NCBI GenBank assembly: GCA_963969395.1
Contig: OZ017797.1
Span: 744,001 to 808,000, forward strand
From: Pseudoscleropodium purum
Lineage: Eukaryota > Streptophyta > Bryopsida > Hypnales > Brachytheciaceae
Length of the DNA: 64,000 bases
Direction: 5' to 3'
In this document: positions 1,210 to 49,417 of the stretch, in pieces
Position numbering within the stretch: position 1 is the stretch's first letter
Layout of the letters: the number at the start of each line of letters is the position of its first letter
Translations under genes and position numbers: made by a program
The notes under the pieces: model-generated
The model's input: the letters and a program-made list of their open reading frames with translations, nothing else
Told to the model about the DNA's origin: nothing
Database searches by the model: none

Positions 1210-3080
1210 TTAACCCTAGAAGACCAAACTATGTTTTTTGACAACATAGTAGTTTTTGACAACTCACTATAAAAAGAATTTTTTTTTAAAAACCTTGAAA
1301 TTTTCTCACAACATGTGTCCAAGGAGTTTCTTTAACGCTTAATAAACTTTATAACTTTTGACTACATGTTCAAAAGTTATCACATGATATGTAATTTTGA
1401 ATGCTTGGCGGGCAATCCAAAAATTTCTTAACCTCTACAGGACCATTGTCCCTTTGGAGGACAAATGGAATTTTGGGCAAATACCCACAAGCTGAAATTT
1501 TTTTTTGATTTTTTGAAACTTTTTTTGAAGAAAGGATAATTGATTAGCTTTATGGGAATATAATATTTTTTCCTATTGGTGTCCATGAACAAAAGTTATG
1601 CCCAAATAAACTCAAAATAGGAGCTGGGTGTGTGTATGTGTGTGTATGTAGGTGGGAGGGGGTAGCAAAAAAAATTTCAAAAATTTTAAATTTTTTTCCC
1701 CTCATATATTATATTTTTTGTACATGGAAATCTTTGATGTATTTCATTTGGATTGCTTATGAGAATATTGTGGACAATCTTGTTTTGGGGGCAATTAGAG
1801 AATTTTCTTGAAAAAATAATTTGTAAGATTCATTTTTAAATGCAATTTTTACAACTTTTCTAAAAGAAAGTTTCATGTGGTTTATCTTGCTTATTAGAAC
1901 AATCTCACCGTTGGAATTAGTGCATTTTAATTCCATTTTAGAGATATTAATAATCTAGATTTTCCTTTTATCTCATATCTACTTCTACTTAACAATTTTT
2001 TAAAGAATAAAAAATTAAAATTTTTTGAATTATTAAATTTTTCTCTAGACTCTCAACTCAATTCTATACCATAAAGATTTAAAGCTCAATATTCTGTAGT
2101 GCAAAAGATTAAAGTTAAAAATTTTCAAAGTAAAAAAATCTAGTCCCGCAATGTGTTGAAAAACTTGTTTTTTCTACTTTAAACACAAATATCTTGCAAT
2201 TTGTGCGGTCAAAAATTATGAAGTTTTTTCCACACATTTTCATACTAGTGAGGTTTAAGATCCTATGATTAGATATGAGGAAAAAATCAATTTGTAATTT
2301 TTGAGCTTCTACTATAGAAATGGCAGTTTTGAGTGTTTTTTGGCAGAAAAAAGACCTTGGTCCTTTAGGGGGTAAAAAATCACTTTTTTCAAAAAGAAAA
2401 ATTTGAAATTGGTTATCTAGATTTCTATATACATGGAAAGCTTTGAGTCATTGCATTTTGATTTAGGAGATGAAAGTTATGAGGAGTTTTAGTTTGTAGG
2501 TAGTTATGAATTCCCTACTCTAAAATAAACTTTGAAGTCCTTTATTTGATTCAATTTTCAATATTTTTTGAAAAAAATTAAAAACATATGATGTAGAATT
2601 TTTATTACTACATTGTAAACATTGGAATTTGTCACTTTTCAATTCTATAATTAAATTCATGATAATTTAGTGTTTTGAATCATTCTCTACTTCTTTCTAC
2701 TTTCTATTTTTTTCTTATATGCTGTACAATTCCAAATGATCTAATAAATTTCAAGCATATAGCCAACTTGCCTTGAAAAATGAATCCAAAGAGATACTAC
2801 CATTTTAGACATTTTTTCATACAAATGTGACCTTATGAAATGGAGTTGCACACTTTTTTTGTAGGGCCCAAAAAAGGATTTTTGTCAATTCAAACACTAA
2901 TATCTACAAAGTGGAAATTTCTGAAATTTTTTCTTTATCTTCTCAAACTAATGCACTACAAGATTCTATGGTTACATGTGTCCAAAAATGTTTGTCTTCT
3001 AAAATTTGGTTCTTATGTGAGAAATGGTAGTTTCAAAATGTTTTTTTATGAAAACATAGTCTATGACTTTTAGGGGTTAA
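1210..3080 (+). mobile_element. TTAA-flanked non-autonomous DNA transposon, outer copy of a nested pair
   Basis: The left end reads TTAACCCTAGAAGACC at 1210. The right end, read inward on the other strand, is TTAACCCCTAAAAGTC ending at 3080. A second element of the same family sits inside (1428-2375). Removing it with one TTAA leaves about 927 bp, the usual length of this family in the window. Internal stretches match the copies at 11366 and 45141, for example the segments around 'tctacaaagtggaaa' and 'caaatgtgacctt'. No open reading frame is conserved, so this is a non-autonomous relic. The superfamily is uncertain; TTAA targets with CCC-starting ends would fit a piggyBac-like type. Confidence 0.6.
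1428..2375 (+). mobile_element. TTAA-flanked DNA transposon, inner copy nested in another
   Basis: The left end is TTAACCTCTACAGGACC and the right end is GGTCCTTTAGGGGGTAA. The copies at 11366 and 45141 are uninterrupted at the corresponding point. The one at 45141 reads 'ccTTTAAAAATCAG' where this one has TTAA, insert, (G)TAA, AAAATCAC. This is what a TTAA duplication on insertion would leave, with one later point change. It is a close relative of the element at 41436-42370, which lies in the opposite orientation and shares a 23-bp identical stretch next to the right end (about 2325-2347 here). It has no coding capacity. Confidence 0.6.
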
Positions 3081-5256
3081 CTTCTTCTCTATGACATGTC
3101 TTGATCAAGGCTTTTTTTCATTTTTTTATGAAGTGCCAAAATAGTGATATAAAATGTCATAGTGGTGCTCCAAATTTCAACATTCATCCACATATTGGTT
3201 AGAAAATATCACATTAGTATATATTACATATCCATAATTTTGTTTTCATCCACAATTTATAAATTTCATCCAAGATTTTTTTTCGTAATTTGAAGTTTTC
3301 TAGCAAAAACTTCATAAACTATCATCGTTTTTTGGCTAAATTATTTTTTTCTGGTGCAATCTGGCACTATAAAGCAAAAAAAAAAAAAGCCCTAGTTTTG
3401 ATACTACTAAGGTAGGAGGTTCTAAAAGCACACATGCTCTAAAAGTGTCTACCTCCTTAATTATTCATTGCATGTACATGTTTCTTTTTTGTAGCCTTTA
3501 GCTATGTACAAATAGTGTACATTTTAGGAAGTGGACGCTATTAGAGCCCTATGCTACTTTAGCTTCAAATTTTCATAACTAATTCCATAAAGCTCTAAAA
3601 AATATGAACTGACTTGGGTTAGATGCCAATTCTACTTGTCTTTCAAGGAAAATTTACTGAAAAAATTTGAAGTTTCACCTCCCCAAAAATCAATTCTAGC
3701 TCTTAAATGGTTGGTTTATGGGCCTCCTACCCTAGTGTCATTTCTTCATGTGCATGAGATGCATTTTGGCATCATCTACATGACACTTTTAGCACCCTAC
3801 ACCTTGTATTTTTGAAAATTTGTAATGAATTCATAATGAATTCATAAATATGAAACCATGTGCATTTTGATTCTTAGTCCTTCCCCAATGTGCAAAAATT
3901 GTTGTTCATTTTCGACAACATATTGGTTATCCTCTAGGTTTTCTTCCCTTCATATAAGGTAGTTATTTGTATGATTATAATTACCTTATATGAAGGGAGG
4001 AAAAATTAGTGCTGTCTAAAAGAAAGGAAAAAAAAAAAAAGGTCAAGAATTGCTTGCAAAAATTAAAACTTGTCAATGAAGGGTGGGCTGAAAATGAAAG
4101 GGCTCATTTGTTAACAAGTACTAGAATATGAATCTAAGTTAAAATTGGTGTAGTTATTGAAAATGGGCTATTAGGATATGTCAACAACCAATATTTGGGG
4201 TAGATATTAAGGTCAAAGGCTTAGAATGGACTTAGGATAGACTTAGGGTTGGTTTGATACCTCAATTTTTTAAATACTTTTTGTGAATGTGGATTTTCAA
4301 AACAAAATTTGGTAAAATATAAACAACAATGTCCTATGAAGTTAAGAACTTTGGAAGCACTAAATGAGGGGGGATTTGTGTAAAGAGGAATTTCAGGCCA
4401 TGGATTGGTCAAGAATCTTTGATATTTGGAGAAGCATGAAACACTTCAAAGCAACACTCTTGGGGAAGGGTACTATGTAGCCAAATTGCAACATTTCAAA
4501 AGAAATCTCTATTTTTTGCTACATAAAAAGTAGTCCTTTATAGCCTAAACTTTTCAATTTTCATTTAAACTATTGATGAAGTTGCTTGTTTGGGATGGGA
4601 AAAGCATATGAATAAATTGAAAATTGTTTTTTTGTCCAAAAATGAATAAATGTAGAAATGTAATGCTTCATCAAATTTGAAGTGAGTGCCATCTTGACAC
4701 TTTCTCAAAAAGTAAAACATGCTTGCTACATTTAAATAGTTAAATTGGAAGTAGACTTAGAAGTAGAAAAACATACTTTATTGTTTTATTGGATTCAATA
4801 AAGTTTTGTTACATGTCTTTTATTTCAATGAATTTGTTTATTTCATTCTTTGATTTTTAACAATCAACTTATGTTCACTACATGCATGTAAAAAATGAAG
4901 GGCTACCAATTTGACAACACTTCAATTCATAGGGCAATTTTTCTTTATAAATATTTTGCATGAAAAGTTGAATATCCTTCAAATTCTTACATTGACAAGT
5001 GGGGGATAATTCGTTTTATTCATAAGTCCATCATGAATTCAATCAAAGATTGTCATGTGGCATGGGCAACCTAAAATATAATGCACACAAAGCCTAAACT
5101 ATCTCAACTATAAAAAATTAAAAAAAAGCATATACTAAATTCCTATTCTTTCATTTTCAACAACTTTTGCTTAAAATCCTCTCAAGGTCTCTTTAGAGAC
5201 AATTACATCTAGTATGTCATGATTGTGAATTAGTTGATTTTTTCAATTCAAGCATT
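3081..5256. other. AT-rich gene-free stretch
   Basis: Long A/T runs and only short chance reading frames. It contains the perfect hairpin at 3946-3997, annotated separately, and an A-run at 4029-4040. I see no supportable gene. Confidence 0.5.
3946..3997. repeat. Perfect 16-bp inverted repeat (hairpin)
   Basis: The arm CCCTTCATATAAGGTA at 3946-3961 is matched exactly in reverse complement at 3982-3997, with a 20-base spacer. It may be the remnant of a very short palindromic MITE or a chance palindrome. No terminator or promoter role can be assigned. Confidence 0.7.
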
Positions 5257-6180
5257 TTAACCCCTAAAGGACAATTGTTTACTAAGTGGACAATTAGAAA
5301 TTCAAATAGGTTACCCCAAAGTTCATTCAAATAGACGAAAGTAAAATTCTTATCAAATATGCACATTTCTATAAACTTCTCCAAAATATAATCTTCTTTT
5401 TCCAATCGGTACTTCAGTCAAAGTTATTAGGCTCAAAAGTTTAGGGGCAACCTGGGTATCATGCTAATATAGAAGGTGGTGTTTTTTCATTACCTTTAAA
5501 TGCTTATATCTTGCATTCTATGAAGCCAAATTGGCTGAATTCTTTATCACACATTTCCATGGTAGTATAGAAAAATGGTGTATGTTTGAAATTGTAAAAG
5601 GACTCCTTTTTTCCCAATTTTCACTCAAAATACTAAAAATGGAAATTTTAGATTAATTTTAGAACCACTAGCACAAATTTTCATGAGATTTTTTATTTCT
5701 TTATTTAGATTTATTAAGAGAAGAAAAGCTTTGTATTGATTGTTGGGATTTATATTCTTTCAAAAATTGAAATCTTGTCCATGTACTTGCTTTTGGAGGG
5801 GCATTTCTTTAGTATAAGGTGTTGTGTTAGACACCTCCATTATCTTTGAGAATTGACATGCAAGTAACTAACACAACTACCTATCTAATGGTCAAAGTTT
5901 CCAAAGTTGAATAGTGCCTCTTTCTCTACAAAGTTGAGTCAAACTATACTCACGTTGTTGGCAAGGGCCTCAATTTTTTTCCAACTTCAAATGTTCTAAT
6001 CTTGCAATATCAATCAAATGGTCTAAATTTTTTTCCACAAATTCCTATAGCAATCTAGTATAAGTTTGTATAGTTGAAGGTTTGAAAAATGCTTTTATAT
6101 TTCAATTATTCTCAATGCACTAGAAAATGGCAATTTTAGATACTTTAAGTGAAAAATAGTTAATGAGCTTTAAGGGTTAA
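5257..6180. mobile_element. TTAA-flanked DNA transposon, 924 bp
   Basis: The left terminus is TTAACCCCTAAAGGAC and the right terminus is CTTTAAGGGTTAA, so the ends are inverted repeats bounded by TTAA on both sides. Its length matches the standard size of this family (924-980 bp). The body is AT-rich, has internal motifs in common with the other copies ('aaaatggcaattttag' near the right end), and has no open reading frame of note. Confidence 0.55.
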
Positions 6181-8240: not shown

Positions 8241-9809
8241 TCACTGCAACCCGAACAAAATGCGTCCGGCTCTCTGCCGCAGGTCCTGATGATCCGGCAC
8301 GATCCCATCGTTCCCTGCTAACACGTTATATTTATCCTTCCGAGTCAAGTTCGTGCACTTGAATCCCAAGGAATTTGCAAGCACGCGTTGAATGTAGTTC
8401 GCCACTTCGTGACTCGTCTTCCCACCATTGCAAGTCAGCTGCGGTGGAAGTTGGTCGAGAAACGTCACCTCGTATTTCGGACACGGGTTCATGAAGAAAA
8501 AGAAGGGGTCCAAGCTTTTCCACCCCCTCGCACTGGTGCCATGGAACATGGTGATCTTGATGTTCATCGTCACGGGCACAATCTGGTCCGTCAGCTCAGC
8601 AAACAAGGAGCTGAAACGAAGCAAGAAAGGCTCCCTGCAAGTGGTGCCCTCAGGGCACACCACAAGGTCGCCTTCTTGAAGTAACTCGGCCATGGTGTTG
8701 GCGTCTCTGTCCCTACAGCGAGTGAGGCGCACTGTGCGAATGGGAGCCAGAACTTCGGACAACCGACTAATGCTGTACGTCACAGCGGTGACCCTGCGAC
8801 GCACTGCGATGCACAGGAAAATGGGGTCCAGTAACGTACGGTGGGAGCAGACAAAGAGAACGCCGCGCTTCTTGGTGCGCATGGGGCTTGTTGGAGGGAT
8901 GCCGCGGACACGAACCGTCACTCCTAACATAGCTTCCAACGGTAACGCCCACCACATGGGGAGAATAATCCCAATGAGCATGCGAAACAAAGCAAGAATG
9001 AACCCGATGGGACACCAGAGCATGACAATGAGCGACATGAGCGGCGTTGGGCGACACACCAGGCGGCCATCGTGGAAGATGAGCGGCTTCAAATACTCGT
9101 GCTTGGGAACGGCTTCGACTTCCTTGTAGCTCGCCACAATATAGGCTTCTTTGCAAAGATCCATAAACGGGAAATCACTCTGGCGGTCCCCCAGTCCCAC
9201 GTCGGGTTGATCAGATCCGAAATACTTTTTCACCGCGCGCTCTTTGTTACTCCCAACTAACACCCCCGGCCCAGTCACGAACCCGGTTGCATACCCGCCT
9301 GTTGTTACTTGAAGCTCCGTCCCCATCACCGCTTCTACATCCAAATACTCCTTGAGAAAAGGTTCCACCATGATCCTAGGATTCGCAGTCACCACGTAAC
9401 GCTTCTCACAGGAGATGAACACGCGGTAGCTCACGCTGTGCATATCCTCGAGGTAGAACTTGGGTAAGACGCCACGGGCAACGGACTCGATCACTGAAGC
9501 TTTCAACCCCGCGAGTGATACGAAGATGAGCATCTTGATGCCTGCTGCTTCCGAGACGAAGTTGTAAACAAGCCAAATGAGGGGGGAGACGAGTAAGAGA
9601 ATGATAGACCGTAAAGGACTGCCGGCTTCGAAAGCCACGAGCATGAAGTAAGGAAAGGAGCTGCGTGACCGGATGAGCGTCCCGTCCAAGTCGGAAACAA
9701 TGCTGGAAGTTTTTCGACCTTCGACACGACACGTCTCGACTTCGGGGAAACTCTCGCTGCAGAAGAAAGAAGCGCTGTCGACTGCACCCGGATCCAGCGC
9801 CTTCTCCAT
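8241..9809 (-). CDS. sn-glycerol-3-phosphate acyltransferase (land-plant GPAT, HAD phosphatase plus PlsC acyltransferase)
   Basis: A single open exon encodes 522 residues from an ATG at 9809 in good context (GCCATGG) to TGA at 8243-8241. It transfers an acyl group from acyl-CoA to glycerol-3-phosphate. Land-plant members act at sn-2 in the endoplasmic reticulum and feed cutin and suberin synthesis. The N-terminal HAD domain starts at residues 40-44 (DLDGT), followed by [17 protein letters not shown], and has a second motif GLGDRQSD at 205-212. Hydrophobic segments lie at about 60-85 and 257-285. The PlsC domain has block I as SHRTLLDP (322-329), where many members have NHR, then [20 protein letters not shown] (385-395) and IVPV. 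The C-terminal half most resembles the suberin-type GPAT5/7 group, while the intact HAD motifs resemble the cutin-type GPAT4/6/8 group. The frame stays open 44 codons upstream of the ATG, to a TAG at 9944-9942, without another ATG, so a longer spliced N-terminus is possible. Confidence 0.93.
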
Positions 9810-9931
9810 GGCGTTCTTGGGGTTCCAAAAACACGATGCCCAAGTGTGGAAGGCTGTCACCACAAAACGAACTGCGGAGAAGTCCTCCAGCTTGATAAAC
9901 GGAATGCCACCGCCCCAATGTATGGATATCC

Positions 9932-9938
9932 ACCTACC
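9932..9938 (+). promoter_or_regulatory. AC element (ACCTACC), possible MYB site upstream of GPAT
   Basis: An exact ACCTACC lies about 125 bp upstream of the GPAT start codon. AC elements are known MYB-binding sites in phenylpropanoid and cuticle or suberin-related promoters. A 7-mer can occur by chance and the site may lie in the transcribed leader. Confidence 0.22.
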
Positions 9939-9944
9939 CAGCTA

Positions 9945-10860
9945 GTTAGGTATATCTTTGTATACACGCACCAGCTTGCTAGCTCGCTAGCTCTTCAACA
10001 TGGTATTATCAATTCTCCAAGGCGTCCACGCTTCCTTACATATATCGATCCAGACCACGATAATAATGCATACAATTCTCTCGGCCTGATGAATATATAT
10101 ATCAACACTATCTACAGACTTTGTATATATTGCTGAAGTCACAGAGCTCGCCGGTTCTCCACTAGAAGCCAGCTTACAAAATGGGGCGTCATCTTGGTGA
10201 CGGCTTTAACTTACACTTGAAATTTAGAGTTGTTGGAGATGGGAGGTTGGTTACTGTACCTAGAAAATGGGACTGTTCAGGAGACTGGACGAGGTGGTGT
10301 GAGGCTGGTGTGAAGCATAAGTTATAACTTAAGTTATGAATGAACTTGATGAGTTCGAGAGTGTGGGGAGTTCTACGGGCGGTGTAGGAAGTTTGCTGGT
10401 AAGTTAAGTCAGCTTGCTAGCTGGGGTGGGGTGGTTTGCGGTGCGGTCAGGGGGTGGAGGTGGCATTGAAGGGGGTGGATATTAGCGTTAATAGCCGCTG
10501 GTGCCAGTTTTAATTTGCGCAGGCGGGGGTTGCTCATGGGAATTCAAGACTGAGGTGGTCATGGCCGAACCCGTGTTTGCTTGACTTGTTAAGTTATGAC
10601 TGACTGCCGCCTGGAGGGAGTTTCTAGAGTTTCAGTTGCCAGCTAGGAAGGACGCGGAGAACTGATGGATGATGAATGAAATTCAGGGGAACTGAAACTG
10701 AGTGGTACAGACTGACGGAAGAATGCCGACATTTATTCATCCTGGAATTGGATGATTTTGGGTTGACTATCGGCCAGTGATTAGGTTGTGATCTTCTAGA
10801 GTTAAGGTAAGGTAGAATCATGGATTTTTTTTTCGTTTTTAATGAAATGTCATAGTGTCG
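9945..10860. other. Upstream region of GPAT
   Basis: Balanced to GC-rich sequence between the GPAT frame and AT-rich repeat DNA. It holds alternating AT stretches at 10093-10102 and 10124-10131 that could serve as TATA boxes on the minus strand. It also has a G-rich plus-strand (C-rich minus-strand) block at about 10420-10475. A 48-codon plus-strand frame at 10181-10327 is noted but unsupported. The boundary with the AT-rich region lies near 10830. Confidence 0.4.
10093..10102 (-). promoter_or_regulatory. Candidate TATA element for GPAT
   Basis: A run of alternating A and T within the otherwise balanced upstream island, about 285 bp before the start codon on the minus strand. It would imply a 5' leader of roughly 250 bases. 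No transcript evidence is visible. Confidence 0.25.
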
Positions 10861-11365
10861 ATACAAAATGTTATTGTAGTAATACAAATTTCAACATTCA
10901 TCCACACATTGGATAGAAAATATCATATTGGCACACATCACATATTCATAATTCTATTTTCATCCACAATCTCTCAATTTTGTCCAAGATTTTATTTAAT
11001 TTGAAAAATTTTGGCAATTTTTTGTCCTATTAGTATTTTCTATTAGAGGCTCAATGCGAGGTCCAATATTTTGGTTCAAATTGACGATAAATCGTTACAA
11101 AAAAAACTAAGTTAGGTAGAACAATCCGTCATAGGCAGAATTAGGAGTTTGCTCTCATGCCAAATGTTGCTAATTTTTTTTTAGTTTCTTACATAAAGAA
11201 CAATGTGAATAATAGTGAGAGCACTTGAAATTAAATTTTTGGCAAAAGTATGAATTTGTTATGAATTTTTGAAGTATGTTGCCCATCATGGCCCATAAGA
11301 ATTTCTAGACTAGTACCTCCAAAATCAACAAAAATAAATAAATTTATAATGCTCATCTTACTCAC
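10861..11365. other. AT-rich gene-free stretch
   Basis: Repeat-like AT-rich sequence that shares the 'caacattcatccacacattgg' type of segment with about 3180-3230 and, inverted, with 47385-47420. This indicates an additional dispersed repeat. There is no supportable gene. Confidence 0.4.
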
Positions 11366-12333
11366 TAAACCCCTAAAGGATCAAGGTGCTTTTTTCGGCA
11401 ACATAACTTTTTTGGGTAGGTGCATGTGAGCGGAGTTTTCCATATTTTGGGCCCAGATTTTAACAAAAGTTGTGAACTAGGAATATCTTTCATGTGCACA
11501 AATTTTAGGACATTGGAAATATGAGTCAAAAGTTATGGCCTAATATGTAGTTTGTTTTCCAACTTGGGCTATCCGGGCAGATCTGAAAAAATCATTTTTT
11601 TCAAAAATAAAAATTTGAAATTAATTTTCTAGATTGATATATACATAAAAAGCTTTGAATCATTTTATTTTGATCAATGAGTCAAAAGTTATGAGGTGTT
11701 TTAGTTTGCAGGCAATTATGGATTCTCTACTTCAAAATAAACTTTGAAGTTCTTTATTGAACTCAATTTTTAATATTTTGGAAATAATAATAATAATAAT
11801 TTATTTTTTAAAATAAAAATAATTTAATATATATATATTAGGTAAAATTGTTTATTACAGCATTACAACCATTGGGATTGGAATTTTTCAATTCCATAAC
11901 TAAATCATTAACAAATTAGTATTTTGATTCATTCTCTACTTCTTTCTACTTACTATTTTTTTCCTATATGTTGTATAATTCCAAATGATCTGAAATTTTT
12001 CAAAAATGTAGCCAACTTGCCTTGAAGAATGAATCCAAAGAGTTTCAACCATTTTGGACATTTTTTCATACAAATGTGACCTTGTGAAGTGTAGCTACCC
12101 GGTTTTTTGCACGGCCAAAAAAAGGCTTTTTGTCAATTCAAATGCCATTATCTTGCAATCTACAAGGTGGAAAATTCTGAAATTTTTTCCACGTCTTCTT
12201 AAATTATCATAATACAAGATCCTACGGTTGGATGTATCAAAAAAAAATTGAATCTGTTTTGGTACTTGTCCTAAAAAAAAGTAATTTTGGAGCATTTTTG
12301 GTGAAGACATAGTCAATGAACTTTAGGGGTTAA
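11366..12333 (+). mobile_element. TTAA-flanked DNA transposon, 968 bp, full length
   Basis: The left end reads TAAACCCCTAAAGGATCAAGG (TTAA altered by one base) and the right end is ACTTTAGGGGTTAA. The internal order is the same as in the copies at 1210 and 45141: a 'gcaacata' segment, then a 'caaaagttatg' segment, 'caaatgtgacctt', 'caatctacaaggtgg', and a 'gaagacatagtcaatgaac' segment at the right end. The longest frame is only 73 codons on the minus strand and is not conserved between copies. It serves as an uninterrupted reference for the nested copies. Confidence 0.6.
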
Positions 12334-13601
12334 AGTAGTCACAATATTTTTTAACATGGCCATAACATAAAGGCCTAAGAATTCACTTCCTACAATGAAT
12401 TTATACTCAAAAGGTGTAAGTTCCTATTGTATATAGTCACTAATCACTCTACTACTGTCACCTAAGACTTTGATTGTAGCCCAAATGGTTTATAAGAGCA
12501 AATCTAATTAGTTATTGTTAACATTGATAGTTCAAAATATATTGTAGATTCCATATGTATAATTTATAGAAATAATCAACAAACTAAAGTTAGTAGGATT
12601 TTAGTGTCACTAAAGTTAGTTGTTAAAAATGTGTATTTTTATGTTTCAATCATCCAATGTCTACATTCGGATCTTATATCTATTTCATGTGATGTTTTAA
12701 TGCCCTTCTAATGATTGTTATCTAAAAGAACTCTTGTATTTATACCCTCTAGAATTTTATGCATAATATTTAAGATCAATTATTCTTTCTTTGGAATGAT
12801 CTAAAATATTATTTACATCTGCTATCTAGAGAGAATGGGGGATATTCTAACTTCCTAAAAGAAAAGGCTATCCAAAGAAATGGTGTGATTTCCAATTTCA
12901 CTTGATAGATTAATCCTTCAAGCTTCAGAATTATATGTAGGTAAAAAACACTCCAAAACTACAATTCCTCAATGCAAAGAGCTAAAGAAAGATTTTTTCC
13001 AAATATCCAACGTCATGAACTTGTATAATTTAGATTTGTTTGAGTATGTGTGGAAAAAATTCAAGAAATTTCATTGCTAGAGCATGGGGGTATCTCTAAA
13101 AGACCAAGGGTATTTTGTCAAAAATTGTCTTTTCTTGGTGCATTTACTATAGTTGAAAATAAATGCATTTTTTAAAAACTTCAACCATTCAAAGGAGTAG
13201 TAGACCAATATATCAATGTAAAAAGACAATTTTAGCCCATTTGATCTCGCAAATTACTTGGAAAAGGCATGTAGTGGAAATTAAATGATCCAAGTGCAAG
13301 CAAAGGGGATATAATTGGGAGAATTTTTTTTATAGAGGTAATCTTTGGCACCCTATAATTAAAAAAAAAATTCAAATATTATTTGGAGGAATGTAGGTAA
13401 TTCAAATACTAGTTTAATCCATCGTTAGGATGAGATTGAATCCATAGGAGGGGGACTTCGTCCTAATTCACATTCCTACTTTCTTCACCAATTTCAATAG
13501 TTTCCATTTATTGAATTTTTCTTGAAAAGTTCATGAGTGCTTTTCAAGAACATTCATGATTGGCAAGCACCTATATTTGCTATAATATTATAGTCATACT
13601 A
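12334..13601. other. AT-rich gene-free stretch
   Basis: No reading frame, hairpin or known motif worth calling. A 'aaaagaccaagggtattttgtc' segment near 13095 resembles the ends of the TTAA-flanked family and may be a decayed terminus. Confidence 0.4.
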
Positions 13602-13685: not shown

Positions 13686-13892
13686 ATTCTTTTTTTAAAG
13701 AATTCTAGTATAGTAAATTGAACAAATCAAACATTTTCAACATCTATATCACTTAGCTTTAGGTGTCACTTACTATGAGGCGTAGAGATGAAAAGACAAG
13801 ATTTTCATACAATTGCAATAGTAGTAAGTAAAACAACCTATGTGGAATATATAAATTAGGATTAGTGGGATTTCAACTACTCATAGGTAATT

Positions 13893-14279
13893 CAAAAGTA
13901 GAAATTGTGTTCAAAATAACATTTCAAACTTCATTTTGGTATAGTAGAATAACTTTTTTCAAAAACTTTTATTCAAATTAATGTGAGAAATCAAGATATC
14001 TTTCATCTCAAAGAACCTGCTTGAGATTTAGAGCCTCCAATCAAAAGTTATGGACAAAATTTAGAAAAGAGTTGGAAGGGACATTTTCTTTGGTATTTTC
14101 AAACATTCTCCATGAAGTTTGTCCATAACTTTTGACTGAAGTCTCAAATGGTTTTTTGGAGATGAAAATTATCTTGATTTCCTTCATTAATTTAGTTCAA
14201 AGTTTTTATTAAGAGGTTATTTCTCTCTCTTCCTAAATGAGGTTTGAAATTCTATTTTGAACATAGTTCCTACATTTTG
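13893..14279. mobile_element. Foldback MITE, copy 1 (~385 bp palindromic element)
   Basis: Nearly the whole element is one imperfect inverted repeat. The outer left arm GTAGAAATTGTGTTCAAAAT pairs with the outer right arm (reverse complement GTAGGAACTATGTTCAAAAT). Further in, 'ccaatcaaaagttatggaca' pairs with 'tgtccataacttttgactga'. The spacer between the arms is only about 60 bp. The same architecture and sequence recur at 19904-20251 and 31712-32106, so this is a dispersed family and not a chance palindrome. A transcript would fold into a long hairpin. It has no coding capacity. Confidence 0.65.
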
Positions 14280-15746
14280 ACAATGAACAAGCAAGCTTTC
14301 ATTTTCAAATTATCACACATCCTTTCATGATGGACAATGCATTTCATTATAAAAACAACCTCTCCACAAAATTTCATTGAATTAATTTTGTCATTTTGCA
14401 TTCAAAAGTTTTTATGATGCTTGGTAGATGGTTAATTGATAGATAGGTAATGACTTCAATAGATTGTTAATGGATTCTCTAGATTTTCTAAAATTTTATA
14501 ATTAATTTAGGCTAAAGTTGCTATCCGGTTATGGTAATTTCTTCGTTTGATGTGATACTCTCTTGACCACATTACATTTAATTCAACAATAGTCACCACC
14601 AAGGGTGGGCTATTGTGAACATTTTTGGAACTCACAATCTTCTAATGACCTCAATCATTAATCATCTAAAGTATTAGACACCTTGTCTTACTTAATCTTT
14701 TTTTGTAAAAAATAAGTCTAATGATTTCATAATATTATTGAGCATTGGTAGGAAATACCCTTTTCCTCCCTCCAATCTAGAAACTACTCTAGCATTATAA
14801 TTGAAAGTTTGCATGACAAGACTATAGAATAGGAAACCTTAGCCAATCTTGAATTCAAAATTCAACGGAAGTCACACGGAAAAGGTATCTTTGTAAAGCT
14901 CTACCTACTAAGCTAGGGAAGTTGTGGGGGTATACAATGTTATGTTTATTGTGCTCTAAAATTATCCAATATGTATGACAAAAATTTCAACTACACTCAA
15001 ATGCTTTTTGGAACCTCAATCTTATGGTTTAGATTAATGCATCTCCAAACAATGTATTGTGGGGCATTCTTGTAACCATAATCTTTGTATGCCCAAAACT
15101 ATTGTCAAAAGAATTTATTTGAACCTCTAGAGGTTGATGACTACAAATTCTAGTTTTAAAATAGACTCACATATCATTGATAACCTAATATGTTCACAAT
15201 TGTTCACAACAATGAAATTTAGAGAAATAAATCTTAAGATGTAGGATCTACAAATGGTTCATACAATTGACAAGAATATCACAAAATTCACCACATGATT
15301 GCTAAAGTATGAGAAGGGAGTGTCAAGTAATGAGCGTTAAATAATGACTTGTTTTTAGAAAATCTTGTAAAAATATTTAAAACTTTTCACCATGAGATGC
15401 CTATTTTGTGGTTTAGGATAAATATCTATGGCTATAAATGAGTTTGAAGAGGTTGAATGGGGATGAATGGATTTGGATGGATTTTTGTAGTTGATTTTAT
15501 TGTATGAAATACATTTGTTGTTCATTGCATTGGATGATGAATGTTTATTGAATGGGATTTAAAACTTAATTGTTTAAGATAAAGATTGATGTTCAAGTAC
15601 CTTAAATTAAAGATAAAGAAGTTGCCAAAGGATCCTCCCTTTATTAATTTAGAAGTTTATTTGAACTACAATTGAAATTTCAAAATTTCAAAATTATTTT
15701 CTTCAAAAAAATAATGAAAAAATAATATTAAAGAAATTCAGTAGAT
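14280..15746. other. AT-rich gene-free stretch
   Basis: No supportable gene or structured element seen. Only short, low-complexity frames occur. Confidence 0.45.
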
Positions 15747-17350: not shown

Positions 17351-18330
17351 TTAACCCCTCACCGCCCAAGGGGACCAAAAGTGTCCTCACAGAGTTTCAA
17401 GTCATATTCAAAGTGTTGTAACTTTTTCATCCAACGTCCAAATTCAATAAAATTTGTTGAAAAAGTTGCACTCTTTCTTTTAGTTTATATGGTAAAATTT
17501 TCAGATTAATACAAGCTGTATTGATTTCTTGAAAGTCAGTCAAAGTTCACAGGTTCAATTTGAGTCCACCAAACTACATTTCATGGCTGAAACTTTTTTT
17601 GGGGGGTATCTCCTTCATCCAATGTTTGTTTTTAATAAAATTTGTTGGATTATGTTTTCCTTGAAGTCTAGTTCTTGTAGTAAAATTTTCATGTAAATCC
17701 AAGTTGTTTTCAATGTTTGAGATCAATTTGAAGTTCAAAATCCAGACAATTTTGGATTATAGTGAACTTTGACAACTTGTTTCTTCTATATGCAATGTCC
17801 GTTTTCAATAAATATTTTAGAGAAAGTTGCACATACTAGTCTAGTTTTTGTGACTAAAATTTCAAATCAATCCAAAAAGTTATGAGGGATTGAGAAGCAT
17901 TTTAGTAAAAGAAGGTTTAGCCTTACATGTGTTTTCTGTAACTTTTCTTGCCTATTTTTTGAAATTTGCAAGCCATTTTGCAAAGACATTGAGTCAATTT
18001 ATTGATATTTTTTTCCTTCAATGTGTTTGTATGCTGGTTTTGAATCACTTTATAGTTTCAAGTTTTTTCATTTGAGTAAGTTTAGAAATCGAATTTCACC
18101 TCCAAGTGTGTTGCTAGGAAAATTTCAGCATCTTTTTTCAACACCAAAACATTATAATCTTTCAATCTATACGGTCAAATGACTCCAAATTTGATTCCCA
18201 TCATCTACAATATGTTCACTACAAGATTGTATGATTAAGATCTTTATAACTTAGTGACATTTACATCTACACCGCTTCAAAAGCACTGATGTTTTGGAAC
18301 CTGAAACAACCTTGGGCGGTAAGGGGTTAA
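17351..18330. mobile_element. TTAA-flanked DNA transposon with 21-bp terminal inverted repeats, 980 bp
   Basis: The left terminus begins TTAACCCCTCACCGCCCAAG and the right terminus, reverse complemented, begins TTAACCCCTTACCGCCCAAG. They agree at 20 of 21 positions. This is the best-preserved inverted repeat of the family in the window. It represents a variant subfamily in which CACCGCCC replaces AAAGGACC. The body is AT-rich with a repeated 'ccaatg.tcc.ttttcaataaa' theme. No coding region was found; frames at 17890-18075 and similar are short. Confidence 0.7.
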
Positions 18331-19668: not shown

Positions 19669-19903
19669 TTAAATTAAATATTTTTTGGGGTGGTGCCCGT
19701 TTAAAATGAATTTTTTTTTACCTGGGTAAGTGGGTAGCCTGCCACGTGGGTGGGTGCCTCCAAGGAGGTTCAAACCTTGGACCTCATGTTTGGAGGTTCA
19801 AAGTTCCAACCACTAAACCACTCAAATACTTAGGTGACCTCACATGAACTAGAAATTTATATATATAGTTTTTTCATTATTTTTTCATGTGTTTTGTATT
19901 TTC

Positions 19904-31460: not shown

Positions 31461-32379
31461 AAATCTACAAATGAATGTAAAGATGGTTTGTTGAAAGATT
31501 GAAAAACAAACAATAAGAATCAAATACCATCTATCATTTCACTACCAACCATCAAGAAAACTCAAGATGGTATAATTATGGAAGAATGTAGTTCATGAAT
31601 AGACTGTATTAGGTAGAGATGGAGAAGACCTACTTATAATACAATCCAGTGTCCGTCATGAATTGTCAAAGGGTATGGGACTATTTGACAATGAGTTTGA
31701 CCACTCATTGTCAAAACGCAGAAATTGTATTCTATGTAGAACTTTAGACATCATTTAGGTATATAATAATAATAATTTTTAAAACATTTTGAACTGAGAA
31801 AAGATGTTAAATCAAGATAAGTTTCATTTACAAAAATCCGTTTAAGATTTCAAGCCTCTAATCACAAGTTATGAAAAAAATTCAAAGAGGATATTTAAAA
31901 TTGTCAAAGAAAATATCCTTCCAACCTTCTTTGAGTTTTGTCCATAACTTTTGATTGGAGAATTAAAATCTCAAACGGATTTTTGGAGATGAAATTTAGT
32001 TTAATTTAACACCTTTTTCAAGTTCAAAATTTAAAATAAAAAAATTATTCTACTATGCCTAAATGATATCTGAAATTCTACATTGAATACAATTTCTACT
32101 TTTAACTTAACTAGATATGAGCGACTGAGCTCCTACTAATTCTAATTTACATATTCTAGATTGATTGTTTTACCTCCTACTAAGCCACTTGAATAAAGAG
32201 CTTGTCTTCTTTTATAGCAGCTTACAATGAATGATATTTTAAGTTATTATAAAGTGGCTATTGAAAACTATTTTATTCTCTTATTCTAATGTTGAATTTT
32301 TCAATAATAATATTATAAAGTGTTAAAGTTCATTTTGGAAATAAATTAAATATTTGGCACCAAAGTACCAAACCTCCTA
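31461..32379. other. Insertion splitting the ~115-bp tandem array
   Basis: About 0.9 kb of unrelated sequence lies between the last unit on the left and the resumed array on the right. It includes foldback MITE copy 3 (31712-32106). The array resumes in mid-unit, which fits an insertion. The exact borders and any target duplication could not be resolved. Confidence 0.5.
31712..32106. mobile_element. Foldback MITE, copy 3 (~395 bp, long arms)
   Basis: The outer left arm GCAGAAATTGTATTCTATGT pairs with the right arm, reverse complement GTAGAAATTGTATTCAATGT. The pairing continues through 'catcatttaggta' and 'aaaatccgttt' to 'cacaagttatga'. Arms are about 170 bp with a ~40-60-bp centre. It shares outer ends with copy 1 (13893) and the centre with copies 1 and 2. 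No coding. Confidence 0.68.
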
Positions 32380-32620
32380 TTCGAGTATGTTACAAGCTTA
32401 GGATGCATGTTGTCAATTTTTTTTCCAAATATTAGCTTGGGCTGTAGAACATGGCCTCATTAATAAGGTGTCAATTTGTCGTTGTTTTGTATTTCAATTG
32501 GACAGTACAAGCTAAGAGTACATGTTTTAATAAAACATTCACTTTTTTTTATTGCTCATTTGGGTTGTAGAACATCACCTTGTTGACGAAATGTCTAATT
32601 CAAAGGCTTCTATGTCTCTT
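32380..32620. repeat. Tandem array continued, two units of ~115 bp
   Basis: Two further units have cores at 32455 and 32578, spaced 123 bp, with the same 'gggctgtagaacatggcctc' lead. They are the right-hand remainder of the split array; the last unit is the most diverged. Confidence 0.7.
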
Positions 32621-38099: not shown

Positions 38100-39690
38100 A
38101 AATTAATGACAATAATGTCCCTCACCATTCTCCTAGTTTGTCCTCGTAGTTCACATGAAGAGGCTCTACTTTCCCTTGGCGGAGGAATCTATGGATCATA
38201 CATACTTTCAGAAGGTGACAGAGGCTTGTTGAAAGACATTGCAGTTTTTTTTAAAGTGACAGTGTTGAATTAGAGGATCCGAAAAAATACCAAAAGATAG
38301 ATTACAGTGCAGTCTAGTTTCTGTTGGAAACTCAGAATGATCATGATTCAGAGAGATGGGAGTATTTTGCAAGTGGAAGCATTAAAAGCACCGACTGGCA
38401 GAAATTAAACTGAAGTCAGTCATTTTACATTATTGGAGTTGAACTTTCATGGCAAATCCCAGTTTTAATTTTGTGTTGGTGCAAAGTAAATTCCAAAATA
38501 ATGTGCAAGCCACAGGAAATTAAGATGCCAAGCCAATACCCAAGTATATTTCATTTTTTAGAATTGTGCTCTGAGCATATTCTGGCGAGTTCCCGGTCTG
38601 CTCCGTGAGTGGGGATGTCTAGGTTTCTTACACAATCATTCAATGGAATAACTGAAAGAAGAAACTTCAGGAAGCTGCAACAAGCTCATCATTTGATCTC
38701 ATGTCTGCCATTTCCAGTGAGACTCACAAGACAGTCTAAGTCTTCACCAAACTGAAAATCGGTTGTGCAGTATTTTGGATTGTGTGAGGATAGCTTGTTC
38801 GCAACTGAAGCCCTTTGGCTGAGTTTGGAGAGATGGTATGGGTTTGATTTTTAATCTCACGAGGCTACCTCTTAGAGTGAGTGTGTGTGTGTTGTGTTGT
38901 GTGTGTGTGTTGGTTGTCTTTGTGATTTCTTTTGATTGGATAGAGTGGTGGCTCTGCCTAATGTTGTATTGTGGAGTTTCACATTGAAGAAATCTCAGTT
39001 CTGTGTCAAGGAAAAAACTACTGGAAATTGAATTCTCATGTTAGATTGGCAGTGCTTGAGCTGCTTGAACTGCCCTTGAAGGACTCTAGAAAGATGCAAA
39101 TGAAGATAACTTTTGATTTCCATGCAGGAGCGTAGGATTAATAAGTTCACTTGATACTGAGTGATGGACTGCAAAATTTGCATTGAGATATGTCTGTCCA
39201 AATGTTCAATTTGTTTCAATAACTATTGATGAAAGCACAAAAGAATCCACTGGTTCTTCTACAACTCCGATGATGGCATTTGTAAAGATATCATGGTCTG
39301 GGTTCCTCAGATTTTTGTGCATTGCCAAATGCGCTTAAATCGCGGGTTGATTTCAGTGGAAATGACTCAAAATTCGTCAATTTCATCAAATTGATGCGAT
39401 TCTGGACACCAAAGACTGTAACTTTCATTTGCAGTCAATGCTCTAATTCTAGGACTGGTACAGTTTGGAGCTGCAAGATGTGAAAATTGCTAAAGTTCCG
39501 GAATTCTTCCAGTAAAAGGAAAACTAATGTTCAAACAGCAGTTGAAGAAGAGAAATATATTTTGACACTGAAAATTGGGAGGTGTGCTTTCTGAAGTACT
39601 ACATGTATGGTTCCCTTATCAGCGACAGCGTCAAGAGATACTTAGAAGTTATGAACGATTTGACTGATCAGAGCCCGATTAGAGCTTAAC
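38100..39690. other. Less AT-rich island without a convincing gene
   Basis: Word use and composition change here toward those of the gene-bearing islands, with fewer A/T runs and patches such as 'cgagttcccggtctgctccgtgagtgg' near 38584. A plus-strand frame ends at 38273 and includes SLGGGIYGSYILSEGDRGLL. A (GT)n tract lies at 38879-38912. No exon chain or known domain could be built on either strand. It may be a decayed gene, a non-coding RNA locus or the leader of an unrecognised gene. Confidence 0.3.
38879..38912. repeat. (GT)n microsatellite, interrupted
   Basis: GT units with TGTTGTG interruptions. A similar but shorter GT-rich tract occurs at about 1627-1650. Confidence 0.8.
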
Positions 39691-39926
39691 CCCTTAATGC
39701 CTCAATCCTTTTTCAATTTTTTCCACATTTTGGCTTATATCTTTTTACAGAAATATCATTCACTGCAATTTCATGAATTTGGTCATTAAGAAAGGTTGTC
39801 TTTTCAAGATTCAAGTATTACATTGGATGAATGAAAAGTTTGTTGGACTATACAACTCTTGGAAGTGCTCTGTTCATCGTCCAAAATATGGACATCGATG
39901 CGCTTCACGGTTAAGTTCTCTACAAT

Positions 39927-40938: not shown

Positions 40939-42456
40939 TTAACTTCTAAAGGACCAAGGCACATTTTGGGCACAAATTGTGAAAAGTTGCCACTTTTCAA
41001 GGCAATGAAAAAAAGATGAAAATAAAACTTTTTTTCAAAATTCAACCCTATAAATTTTTACTAAACTACTATAAGAATGTGTGGAAAATTTTCAAAAACT
41101 TTGACTTTGTAGATTGAAAGATTATAACATTTGAAGTCAGTAGATAGAGTGTTTTTTTCTAATCCTGCCTATAGGGCTAGCAAACTTTAACATCTAAAGT
41201 GAGAGTTTTACACTATACTATACACTTATTTTGTTCTTATATTTTCATCTTGTATCATGTAAGTTAGATACCTGACAAATTTCAAAATTATTGGAGGAAT
41301 TTTGCACATGGTGCCCCAAATTGTCAAAACTACCTCCAAAGTTTGGGATAGCATAACATTTGATCCTAGAACTCAATTGGAGAAAAAATTATAATCCCAA
41401 TAGAAGAGTACATGTTCACACTTTGTCTCAAAAATTTAACCCCTAAAGGATCTAGGCTTTTTTTTTGCCAAAAAACACTCAAAACTGCCATTTCTATATC
41501 ATTCAAAAGTAAAAAAAAAAAAAATTGATTATTTTTTATCCACACTTTACTATAGGATTTTATACTTAATCATAATGAAAATGTGTAGAAAAAATTTCAC
41601 AATTTCTGACATCATAGATTGCAAGATATCAGAGTTTAAAGTGAAAAAAAAAAAGTTTTTGAGTACATTGTGGGACTAAATTTTTTGACTTTGAACATTT
41701 TTAACTTAAAATTTTTGCACTATATAGTTTTGAGCTTTAAATCTTTTTTGTGAAAAATTTAGTTTAGAGTATATGAAAAAAAATAAAATTCAAAAAAACT
41801 TCAATATTAATCCTTTAAAAAATTGTTAAGTAGAAGTAGGTATAAGATAGAAGGAAAATCTAAATCATTAATATATCTAAATTGGAATTAAAATGCACTA
41901 ATTTCAATGGTGAAATTGTTCTAACAAGCAAAATAAACCATGTGTAACTTTTTTTTCTTAAAATTGTAAAAATTGCATTGAGATTTGAATCCTACTAGTT
42001 ATTTTTTGAAGAGTATGCTCTAATTGCCTAAAAAATAAGATTGTTTATAGCTTTTCTCATAAAAAATCCAAATGGAATGAATCAAAGTTCTCCATGTAGA
42101 TAAAAACATAATCTATAAGAAGAAAAAAATTGAATTTAAGAATTTGAATTTTTGAAATTTTTTTGTTGCCCTCTTTCCCTCGTTTTGAGGTTATTTGGGC
42201 ATAACTTTTGTTCTCATGCATCGATTAAAAAAATTTATATTCCCACAAAGTTAATCAATTTTTTTATCTTCGAAAAAAGTTTCAAAAAATTAGGAAAAAA
42301 TTTCAGCCCATTGGTTCTTGCTTGAAATCCCATTTGTCCCTTGAAGGGACAATGGTCCTTTAGGAGTTAAAAACATTTGTTAAAAAGTGACTTCAAATAC
42401 ACCTATCCAAGATCACATGTGAATGTTCAACGGTCATTTGGTCCTTCAAGGGTTAA
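40939..42456. mobile_element. TTAA-flanked DNA transposon, outer copy of a nested pair (partly deleted)
   Basis: The left end is TTAACTTCTAAAGGACCAAGG and the right end is GGTCCTTCAAGGGTTAA, inverted repeats bounded by TTAA. An inner element (41436-42370) accounts for 935 bp, leaving about 587 bp, shorter than the usual 924-980, so internal sequence has been lost. A 68-codon minus-strand frame inside is a chance frame. Confidence 0.5.
41436..42370 (-). mobile_element. TTAA-flanked DNA transposon, inner copy, 935 bp
   Basis: The left end is TTAACCCCTAAAGGATC and the right end is GGTCCTTTAGGAGTTAA. It is the reverse-oriented relative of the inner element at 1428-2375. Near its left end it carries the exact reverse complement of that copy's 23-bp stretch (GCCAAAAAACACTCAAAACT and onward). 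Further shared blocks follow in the expected inverted order. Length is typical of the family and it has no coding frame. Confidence 0.62.
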
Positions 42457-45140: not shown

Positions 45141-46075
45141 TTAACCCCTAAAGGACTACACTATTTTTTTGGCAACATAGTAATTTGGGATAGCTCACTA
45201 TGAATGAAATTTTTATTTATTTTTCTTTGAAATTTCTATATGGCATCTGCCCAAGGCATAGCTTCAAAGCTTGACAATTTTCATAACTTTGGACTATATG
45301 GTTAAAAAGTTATTGCATGATATGTAATTTCCATTAATCTACTAGTAGCTTGGACAACTCAAAAAATCCTTTAAAAATCAGTTTTTTAAAAATGAAAAAT
45401 TCCAAATTGATTTTCTAGATTTAAATATACACGGAAAGTCTTGAATCATTCCATTTTGATTAATGAAATGAAAGTTATATGGAGTTTTAGTTTGCAAGCA
45501 GTTGTCAATTCTCTTTTCTAAAATAAAATTTGAAGTCCTTTATTTTAACTAAATTTTTAATATTCAAAAAAATAAAAAAATCATATAATGTAGATTATCT
45601 ATTCCAACATTATAAGCATTGGATTGGCATTTTTCAATTCTATAACTAAATTCTCAACAATTTGTATTTTGAATCATTTTCTACTTCTTTCTACTTACTA
45701 TTTTTTTCCTATATGTTGTACAATTCCAAATGATGTGAAAATTTTCAAGTATCTAGCCAACTTGACTTGAAAACTAAATCTGAAGAAGTACTACCATTTT
45801 GGACATTTTTTTTATACAAATGTGTAACCTTGTAAAGTGTAGTTGCCTATTTTTTTGCAAGCCAAAAAAGGATTTCTATCAATTCAAACACTACTATCTT
45901 GCAATCTACATAGTGAAAAATTCTGAAATTTTTTCGACATTTTGTGAAACTAGTTTACTACAAGATCCTATGGTAAAATGTGTCAAAAAAAAAAATTCTT
46001 GAAATTTGGTACTTGTATTAGAAATGGTTTTGAAGTGTTTTTGTGAAAACATAGTAAAAATTGTTTACGAGTTAA
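45141..46075 (+). mobile_element. TTAA-flanked DNA transposon, 935 bp
   Basis: The left end is TTAACCCCTAAAGGACTACAC. The right end is worn (ACGAGTTAA) but still closes with TTAA. Internal blocks occur in the same order as at 11366-12333 and in the outer copy at 1210-3080. It provides the uninterrupted counterpart (near 45366-45390) of the site where the inner element at 1428 inserted. No coding frame. Confidence 0.55.
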
Positions 46076-47909
46076 AATGAATTTGGATTGTCTTAGTTTG
46101 TTGTTCAAGTTGCTTGTCTAAAATCTTTAGATTGGCCATCCCTACCTCGGTACTCAAAGGGAAATAACATACAAGTGAAAAAGAAAAAAATTGTATATTT
46201 GAAAATTTACTCTATGACATGAATTTTTATGTAAATTCTTCACAACCAAAGTTTAATTTGAGTAAAAACATCCAAATATGCATTTTCATTCCGACCAAGC
46301 TTTCATTGGCAATGGAAGTGTCCACATTGCAATCCCCAAAACATAAAGCACGTGCACCTTTAACCATTGTTGTCCAAAATGCGACATCAACATTTGAAAA
46401 AAAAAATGACACTAAAACCTAGATACTAATGATACAAGATGTATACAATAAGAACATAAGAGCCTATAAGACCCCAATGCCAATTTTTTTAAACAATTTT
46501 CTATGATTTATTATATTCAATATCTATTGTATCCATCATTGACACTAATATTGACTAACTCTAGAATTTTGACTTTTAAACCCAATGCGGTGTTTTCTGG
46601 ATAAAAAGTGAGCAACATAAATGTATGCTCCAATCAAAACATTTTCTTTGACATTACAGAACTTGCATTTTTGTAATTGTTTTACTTGGGATTTTTCTCC
46701 ATTCCCCAACATCTACCAATTGTTGCTATTTGATCATCTTTAAAATAATTATTGATATCATCAATGATATTGCTTTGGTGCACTAGAAAAATTCCATTGG
46801 TTTGAAGGTAGAATATGAAGTTGCACACATGATACCTAACATCTCCCCAAACCTTGTCAAATTGCATTCACATGATATTCACAACAATTCCATTCTATAT
46901 GCGACTTATTTGAACTTCATGTGATTTGAATTTTCAGTACTGTATTAAAAGTTACAAATTTATGGGTTTTTTTATCTTTAAGAAAAACAAACGAAAAAAA
47001 CAAACATGGTTTAAATAAGGTGATCCTAAAATTGCAACTTTTCCAAACTTCCAAATTTAAAAGTTAGTAAAAACTGAGATCATTAGTATGAAAATCTCAA
47101 CCAGTGCACCCCCCCAATGATAGTCATATGAATTTGCACAATGAAGCCTTGAAGTGTTTTGGAGACAAAGTGATCCTCGCAAAACATTATGACTTAGGGC
47201 TTTTTTTCTTCTTTCTGGTGCTAGGTTGCACCCCCAAAAAATAATTTCCAGGCTAAAAACTGGAAACAAAATGTGAAATTTTTCACCAAAAAACTTTACA
47301 TTGAAAAAAATTCTGGATGAAATTGCTAGATTGTGGATGAAAATAAAATTATCGACACGTGATATGTACTGATTATGTGATATTCTCTATCCAATATGTC
47401 CAAATTATAGATGAATGTTGAAATTTGGAGCACTACTATAAAATTTTATGTTGCCACTTTGGCACCTCATAAAAAATGAAAAAAAGAAACCTTGATTGAG
47501 ACCACAATCTATACCAAACATACTCTTATTCTATAATTACAATGACTTACATTACATTTCCTTTGCACACCCATATTTAATTACAAACTTTTGAAACCTA
47601 CACATTGTCAAAAAAATCCTAATATAGAGTCTTTTTTTTAAACCAAGGTATGTAGTATTGGTAAAACTCCTATAATTATTTGTAGTTGTAAGTGGGATTT
47701 GGTATGAACAAGCCCTTAATTCATGCCATCCTAAATAAGCATTGGAATTATTTCTTTCTTTAAGTTAGTGACTTAGCCAATAATTCCTTTCACTATTTTT
47801 CATTTCTACACATAACATTGTAATTACAAGTAACCAAGCAACGGTCCTCCCATGCTTGAAATATATTATGCTTTGCTAAATACCTAAGACCCTAGGACGG
47901 ACATACTAG
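46076..47909. other. AT-rich gene-free stretch
   Basis: No supportable gene. The segment 47335-47520 is the reverse complement of sequence near 3110-3250 and 10840-10960, so it belongs to another dispersed repeat. Short frames at 46219-46422 and 47057-47269 lack recognisable features. Confidence 0.4.
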
Positions 47910-49417
47910 TTAACTTCTAAATGAATTTGACTATATTTTCACCAAATCTGCTCCGAAACTGCCATTTCTAGTACAAGTACCAAATTTTTGAAAGAAAACA
48001 TTTTTGAATACATGTAATTGTAGGATCTTATAATATGCTAGTTTAAAAAGATGTGCAAAAAATTTCTAAAACTTTAACTATATAGATTGCAAGATATTAG
48101 CATTTGAAGTGACAAAAATCCTTTTTTTGGCCCTGCAAAAATTTGGGCAATTGCACTTCATAAGGTCACATTTGTATGAAAAAATGTCCAAAGTAGTGGT
48201 TACTTTTTAAATTCATTCTTTAAATCAAGTTGGCTACATGCTTGAAACTTTTAAATCATTTGAAATTATACAACATATAGGAAAAAAGTAGTAAGTAGAA
48301 AGAAGGAGAAAATGATTCAAAATACTAAATTGTTAACAATTTATTTATGGAATTGAAAAATGTCAATCCCAATGGTTGTAATGTTGTAATAAACAATCTA
48401 CACCCAATCTTTTTATTTTTTTTCCAAAAATATTAAAAATTGAGTTAAATAAAGGACTTCAAAGTTTGTCTTAGAGTAGAGATTCAATAATGGCCCATAA
48501 ACTCCCGCAAATTCAAACTCCTTGTAACTTTTGACTCATTGATCAAAATGGAATGATTCAAAGATAACAAATTTCGTTAAGTTGGCACTTTGAAAAGTTA
48601 GACTGCGCATTCTAAACTGTTTTTTATGTACTAGGATCTATAGGAGTACTAGGTTTTTGAAATCTACAACTCTCCTAGATATCTGAAATCTATATCAACC
48701 CTAGATTTTAGGCTACTTAGTCTAATATCTATGCCAATTATAGATTCTTGAAATCTAAAAGTAACCTAGATGTTAACAATGTATATTTGTCCTAGATGTC
48801 AAGGTGTAAAAATGGTATGTGGAATACTGCCATTTTAATGAAATTTGTTACAAAGCTTTCCAAGTATATATAAATCTAGAGAACCAATTTCAAATTTTAA
48901 TTTAAAAAATATTAATTTTTAAAGAAGTGTTTTTTGATGCAAATAATGCAAATATATATCATACAATAATTTTTTAACCATGTAGTCAAAAGTTACATTA
49001 TGAAAAATTTCAGCCCTTAGGAAGGCTGCAAGTTTTGAATTGCTTGGAACTTCATGGAGCAATTAGGGAGGTATTCAAACTGTTTTTTTAATTTTTTAAC
49101 AAAAGTAGCTAATGTTGCACTACTTGTGCCACATTAGTGCCAAATCAGATTTTAATATTAAAAAAAATTAAAAAAATCCCAAATTGTTATTTTTTAATTT
49201 TTTTGTATTTGCATTGTGGCGTGCCAAAAAACCAAACCTTAACAGCCCTCACAAGGCTCACATTTTTTTTTAATGTGAAAATTGTTGAGTCTTAAAGCTT
49301 CTCCTTGGGCACATATTGTATTAAAATTTTAAAGAAAAAAATTAAAAACTCCATTTGTAGTGAGTTGCCGAAAATTTCTATGTTGCCGAAAATATAGTTT
49401 GGGCAGTTAGGGGTTAA
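47910..49417 (-). mobile_element. TTAA-flanked DNA transposon, enlarged copy (1508 bp)
   Basis: The left end is TTAACTTCTAAATG and the right end is GCAGTTAGGGGTTAA. Internal blocks match the 11366 copy in inverted order ('aagatgtgcaaaaaatttct', 'cacttcataaggtcacatttg'). It is about 570 bp longer than the family norm. An unrelated segment at about 48580-48830, with repeated 'ctagat', 'gaaatcta' words, is the likeliest later insertion. Confidence 0.5.

Follow-up and report, generated by a model that had tools for sequence, protein, structure and literature searches.

Introduction

Elements of the piggyBac superfamily have been studied mainly in animals. Their ends are inverted, 12-19 bp long and begin with a CC[C/T]T-type sequence (PMC2872659). 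According to the same source, the coral CMITE families are gene-free elements with TTAA flanks and short, imperfect inverted ends that begin with CCC (family III starts with CCCCTCAG); larger piggyBac relatives with like ends occur in the same genome, and the short elements are understood as their deletion derivatives. The moss elements described here share all of these features with the coral ones. They differ in being mostly about 930 bp long, about nine times longer than the coral elements (96-108 bp), in being older and more divergent, and in number, with estimates of up to hundreds of copies per family in coral (PMC2872659) against 2,100 exact ends alone in the moss. The piggyBac of Trichoplusia ni and the piggyBat of Myotis also have a TTAA target, short inverted ends and a related transposase, but T. 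ni piggyBac is 2.47 kb long (PMC10140906, PMC7351741), whereas the large moss elements span approximately 6.5 kb, of which more than 3 kb separate the left end from the transposase domain.

A reading of this DNA made from the sequence only had known of no well-described piggyBac family in land plants. Such elements have been reported there, since PiggyBac is listed among the MITE superfamilies of angiosperms (PMC10004981) and has a row in a fern repeat table (PMC6890710). It is also named among plant superfamilies (PMC10794571), and plants are mentioned in single statements elsewhere (PMC10813416, PMC8086355, PMC10140906). The moss elements have the plant host and the superfamily name in common with the angiosperm PiggyBac MITEs; this comparison was by name alone, and the passage in PMC10004981 gives no link to a transposase. 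No description of piggyBac in a bryophyte was found among the titles and abstract openings of papers that searches of an open-access library listed, and the moss genome paper PMC10619864 was discarded as such a report, the text match there being 'piggybacking'. As PiggyBac MITEs have already been named in angiosperms, the kind of element is known, and the new part would be the moss host group. The family is of moderate interest for its host, for how numerous it is and for its connection with a probable parental element. Within a single land-plant genome, the ends, the target, the short element and the likely parent are all open to inspection, and a repeat-library entry for the family is expected to mask much of this genome and possibly of those of related mosses.

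We analysed a stretch of 64 kb of the moss Pseudoscleropodium purum, here called the window, together with the assembly from which it comes. We are highly confident that the short elements are non-autonomous (MITE-like) transposons of the piggyBac superfamily in the moss nuclear genome, probably moved by the transposase of an element of approximately 6.5 kb that has the same ends and carries PF13843 (DDE_Tnp_1_7), which we take to be the piggyBac transposase domain.

Ends and structure of the copies in the window

The nine pairs of ends that had been noticed beforehand are present in the window. They are listed with further end-like sites by window coordinates and strand.

1210..3080, + strand: A copy, 927 bp after removal of the B copy (1428-2375) that splits it; TTAA on both sides
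1428..2375, + strand: B copy of 948 bp inside the 1210 A copy; right flank GTAA; shares 80% identity with the other B copy (41436)
5257..6180, + strand: C copy, 924 bp; TTAA on both sides; a second right-end module inside, at 5482-5662
11366..12333, + strand: A copy of 968 bp, with TAAA in place of TTAA on the left
17351..18330, + strand: D copy of 980 bp with variant ends TTAACCCCTYACCGCCCAAGG (21 bp, 95%) and a weak right-end module
40939..42456, - strand: E copy, 587 bp after removal of the B copy (41436-42370) that splits it; TTAA on both sides
41436..42370, - strand: B copy, 935 bp, nested in the E copy
45141..46075, + strand: A copy, 935 bp
47910..49417, - strand: A copy with two foreign inserts; approximately 940 bp without them
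12910..13072, - strand: decayed right end belonging to another copy (right-end profile, E 1.2e-12)
13094..13255, - strand: second decayed right end (right-end profile, E 7.6e-9)
39686..39702, + strand: unpaired left-type end-like site TTAACCCCTTAATGCCT (end matrix score 19.4), for which no convincing partner was found

The lengths agree with the sequence-only reading, six copies measuring 924-980 bp and the outer copy at 1210 coming to 927 bp after removal of its insert. The inverted ends next to TTAA were likewise borne out: 16 of 18 ends have an intact TTAA and two carry a single substitution, so that TTAA stands on both sides of seven of the nine copies and one end is altered in two of nine (TAAA on the left of 11366; TTAC, read inward, on the right at 2375). 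The consensus of the 18 ends is TTAA-CCCCTAAAGGACC, which extends 13 bp past TTAA. Per-position counts for TTAA and the first base after it were T 18, T 17, A 18, A 17 and C 18, and the positions after this first C, CCCTAAAGGACC, showed the consensus base in 10-17 of 18 ends each, through position 17. The exact 17-base form TTAACCCCTAAAGGACC occurred in none of the 18 window ends. Short inverted ends of the piggyBac kind (12-19 bp, CC[C/T]T start) are represented by CCCCTAAAGGACC, with the qualification that the first four bases are CCCC, the same departure from CC[C/T]T that coral family III shows. With an end matrix, 19 sites of the window scored at least 12, compared with 0-4 per sequence in ten simulated by a Markov model; as these same window ends had served to train it, the result describes their rarity and is not an independent confirmation.

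Pairwise BLAST matches that reach the ends stop at TTAA or within approximately 8 bases of it. A scan for exact direct repeats of 4-13 bases flanking the nine copies returned TTAA and no other repeat. T. ni piggyBac has a palindromic subterminal repeat. When left subterminal hairpins were sought (18 ends tested), p was below 0.05 in two of 18, the left ends of A1210 and B41436, and subterminal palindromes are therefore not claimed. An Rfam scan of the window gave no match, and viral contigs had 0 matches to the 17-base end and 0 to an internal stretch. That no transposase is visible in the window was confirmed for the 10 + 135 open reading frames (ORFs) scanned, all of at least 62 aa; the longest stop-free stretches in the nine copies are 60-110 aa. 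The elements have the characters of MITEs, namely no transposase gene, many copies and ends in common with a larger element, and approximately 930 bp is long for MITEs.

Subfamilies and age

The view of the nine copies as a single family stood with respect to their common ends but not with respect to uniformity, as they comprise subfamilies A and B and the single copies C, D and E. Subfamily A (1210, 11366, 45141 and 47910) has mutual identities of 73-78% by BLAST and alignment, and the members of subfamily B (1428 and 41436) are 80% identical to each other; identity between A and B is 53-55%. C (5257), E (40939) and D (17351) occur once each in the window, and pieces of the E copy resemble C. 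A profile of the A copies detected both B copies near full length (E 1.5e-37 and 2.5e-34), which indicates common descent of A and B. Between subfamilies, the termini and a stretch close to the right end are the most conserved parts, and this right module is a putative region of transposase binding, which is probably its role. A right-end profile built without D still detected D (E 2.2e-8); the D copy is tied to the other copies only through its ends and this weak right-end module.

The A copies differ by 10-18% from a rough majority sequence of the four and are therefore old. Copies elsewhere in the genome belong to the same A and B groups, with within-group identities of 69-80% and 79-89%, and the copy at locus L009 is more distant than both groups. 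Nine copies in the fetched loci were inspected: four are flanked by TTAA on both sides, and in the others one end is truncated, mutated or composite. The family appears to be inactive now.

Abundance in the genome

The assembly searched comprised 313.2 Mb in 52 contigs, with the window at C41:744001-808000. The exact 17-base end TTAACCCCTAAAGGACC was found 1,064 times in forward and 1,036 times in reverse orientation (2,100 in the whole assembly), compared with 0 + 0 for the reversed-sequence control. All eight exact ends that were fetched, two of them in overlapping stretches, coincided with an end of a family match (profile position 1 or 931). Two stretches of 10 kb from contig C1, taken at round coordinates, contained four copies, near full length or cut by the end of the stretch. 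Together with the nine copies in 64 kb this corresponds to approximately one copy per 5-7 kb, a density from a very small sample that includes a window selected for its copies. We estimate tens of thousands of copies, which would make up roughly a tenth of the genome at least.

PiggyBac transposases in the same genome

A profile search of the genome with PF13843, in which 116 of 512 first-look candidates were scored, gave 117 matches, the best with E 2.2e-66 and 230.9 bits at a cut-off of 22.4; none of 14 control genomes matched. Many of the matches cover nearly all 349 positions of the profile. Of the matches listed, two were free of stops, both partial, and the others carry at least one stop; the search ignores introns, so some of these stops may be intronic. 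Stretches were fetched around ten of the 117 matches, picked among the better ones. By DNA similarity they formed the groups L011/L012/L016, L014/L018/L019 and L015/L017, with L013 and L020 standing apart. L011, L012 and L016, here called lineage 1, are 67-71% identical in DNA, and L020 has 236 bp in common with L012.

A fragment of 428 residues from L012 (one stop read as X) scored 212 bits to PF13843, and the L012 protein matched the solved structure of piggyBat (9c0f, E 9.1e-15) as well as chain 6x67 (E 3.6e-11), presumably T. ni piggyBac. The fragment contains the motifs TIDE, VTDN and EVDVA, the aspartates of which we take to be catalytic, in line with the alignment to piggyBat. A search of public proteins gave 142 matches at E ≤0.001, and all 120 listed carry PF13843. 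A second protein common to the large elements was sought and yielded short upstream matches only, the best between L011 and L016 (63 aa, 37%, E 1e-8).

At L014 (G000:C1:29029001-29036000) two PF13843 matches lie in direct order approximately 2 kb apart, both 63-64% similar in DNA to L019, as a tandem or nested pair. Common right-end sites TTAACCCTTTAGT at position 4960 of L018 and position 4631 of L019 suggest a second set of ends in the genome.

Linkage of the short elements to a large piggyBac element

Longer relatives with the same ends and a DDD/E transposase had been suggested as a thing to look for, and three lineage-1 loci carry both sides of such an element. In all three, a left end lies upstream and right-end sequence downstream of the domain, on the strand of the transposase. 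L011 and L016 have the exact TTAACCCCTAAAGGACC 3,672 and 3,687 bases before the domain, and L012 has the left end TTAATCCCTAAAGTCCC 3,169 bases before it. These ends continued into profile positions 1-242, 1-144 and 2-215 (E 2.9e-17, 2.6e-16 and 7.9e-11), and the right part matched downstream at 553-931 (E 9.9e-47), 553-932 (E 3.5e-4) and 543-793 (E 1.5e-5). The right match of L016 is weak and was absent with a combined A+B profile. L011 extends from TTAA to TTAA over approximately 6.66 kb and L016 over approximately 6.5 kb with a right end of CTAA, read inward; no right terminus was recognised at L012. The large elements, two of them measured, are approximately 6.5 kb long and decayed.

The arrangement of left part upstream and right part downstream was not found at the seven other loci, which were represented by shorter stretches. 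One of these, L020, does match the family in part, on the opposite strand. The end matrix proposed candidates on both sides of L013 that are unlike each other, right ends at L018 and L019 that are alike, a left end only at L020 and a weak candidate at L014; such single or unmatched candidates at the seven loci were not counted as linkage.

The linkage could be accidental if transposase genes were flanked by dense copies of the family or had inserted into short copies, which we regard as very unlikely. The density of the family is high, as the four copies in two arbitrary stretches of 10 kb illustrate, and a short copy at L005, in which profile positions 1-209 are joined directly to 562-931, makes a split copy with similar borders conceivable. 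However, at all three lineage-1 loci the left part was found only upstream and the right part only downstream, on the same strand, in the correct order and at similar distances, whereas the four copies from the arbitrary stretches were near full length or cut by the end of the stretch. The piggyBac-like reading was upheld in this way, as PF13843 genes of the same genome sit inside larger elements whose ends and subterminal sequence are the same, and the linkage to the transposase settles the superfamily as piggyBac.

We propose that the short elements arose through internal deletion of a larger piggyBac element of approximately 6.5 kb, which had the same ends and encoded a DDD-type transposase (PF13843). 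They would have kept up to approximately 240 bp of the left end of the parent and approximately 390 bp of its right end, and most of them would hold approximately 300 bp of other sequence between the retained ends. The PF13843 transposase of the parent would have moved them by cut-and-paste and pasted them into TTAA sites up to a very high copy number, and two main subfamilies (A and B) and the minor C, D and E may have formed in this way. The large elements gave no match to the middle of the 930-bp element (profile positions approximately 243-540), and with this middle third absent, simple deletion of the parent cannot explain the whole element. The L005 copy looks like a plain deletion form, to judge from its joined segments, to which the 930-bp form would add the extra middle. 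In our judgement there is an even chance that mosses hosted a massive piggyBac radiation of their own. It would comprise several lineages of PF13843 transposases together with a non-autonomous line that persisted for a long time at approximately 930 bp, divided into deep subfamilies and reached tens of thousands of copies and perhaps at least a tenth of this genome, and the conserved right module would have kept this line mobile across transposase lineages.

Target site and other superfamilies

A comparison of empty and occupied sites was provided by B1428, which is nested in A1210. Its joined flanks fitted an empty site with one TTAA best in comparison with each of three uninterrupted A copies, one of which was used with its own inserts left out; the one-TTAA model outscored models with none, with TA alone and with two TTAA. 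The empty site therefore holds a single TTAA. The further claim that TTAA is the only symmetric reading was supported by an outer T in 18 of 18 ends, but it is not strictly the sole reading: duplication of the TA within a TTAA target would be equally symmetric, give the identical product and have the same outcome in the empty-site comparison.

Movement by another superfamily that targets TTAA, either Kolobok or Sola3, is highly improbable. The TTAA target is indeed common to Kolobok, the termini of which are given as 5'-RR and YY-3' (PMC9587614). The ends here are of the form CC..GG, with C as the first base past TTAA in 18 of 18, so that Kolobok was rejected on its termini, and against both superfamilies stands the presence of PF13843 in elements with the same ends. 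A Tc1/mariner-like element that duplicates TA and prefers TTAA would leave the identical product T-TA-ACCCC...GGGGT-TA-A, but its probability is close to nil in view of the outer T at every end and the piggyBac transposase within elements with the same ends.

The classification as piggyBac is accompanied by the rejection of further superfamilies. Helitrons have no inverted ends and no target duplication, and were rejected on the inverted ends and the TTAA on both sides. hAT and Mutator elements make target duplications of 8 bp and approximately 9 bp, respectively, and were rejected as none of the nine copies has an exact flanking repeat of 5-13 bases. PIF/Harbinger elements duplicate 3 bp, TTA or TAA, in direct orientation (PMC10004981); the outer TTA and TAA are inverted here and not direct and the repeat scan gave TTAA only, so that this superfamily was rejected and the earlier remark that a 3-bp target does not fit proved correct.

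Neighbouring features of the window

The ORF at 8244-9941 (- strand) encodes a RAM2-like glycerol-3-phosphate acyltransferase, with its best named relative in the moss Ceratodon purpureus (85%) and another public protein at 91%, which points to a moss host. A protein search with an unrelated ORF of the window gave no match.

The two inserts in the A copy at 47910 (48996-49275 and 48564-48851) are approximately 280 bp each and partly palindromic, with the ends CATTA...TAATG and TAACAAATTTC...GAAATTTGTTA, and represent other foldback mini-elements. A diverged tandem array with a unit of approximately 115 bp occupies 30500-31452 and 32415-32600, with partial copies near. Another family of self-complementary repeats, with approximately 70-75% identity, is found at 13793-14352, 19894-20253 and 31634-32208, and a palindrome of 214 bp at 56676-56889 is 87% identical to its own reverse complement. 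Finally, a repeat of approximately 200-300 bp occurs at 3098-3394, 10816-11014 and 47195-47502 with 74-80% identity, and each of its copies lies at most approximately 600 bp from an A element.
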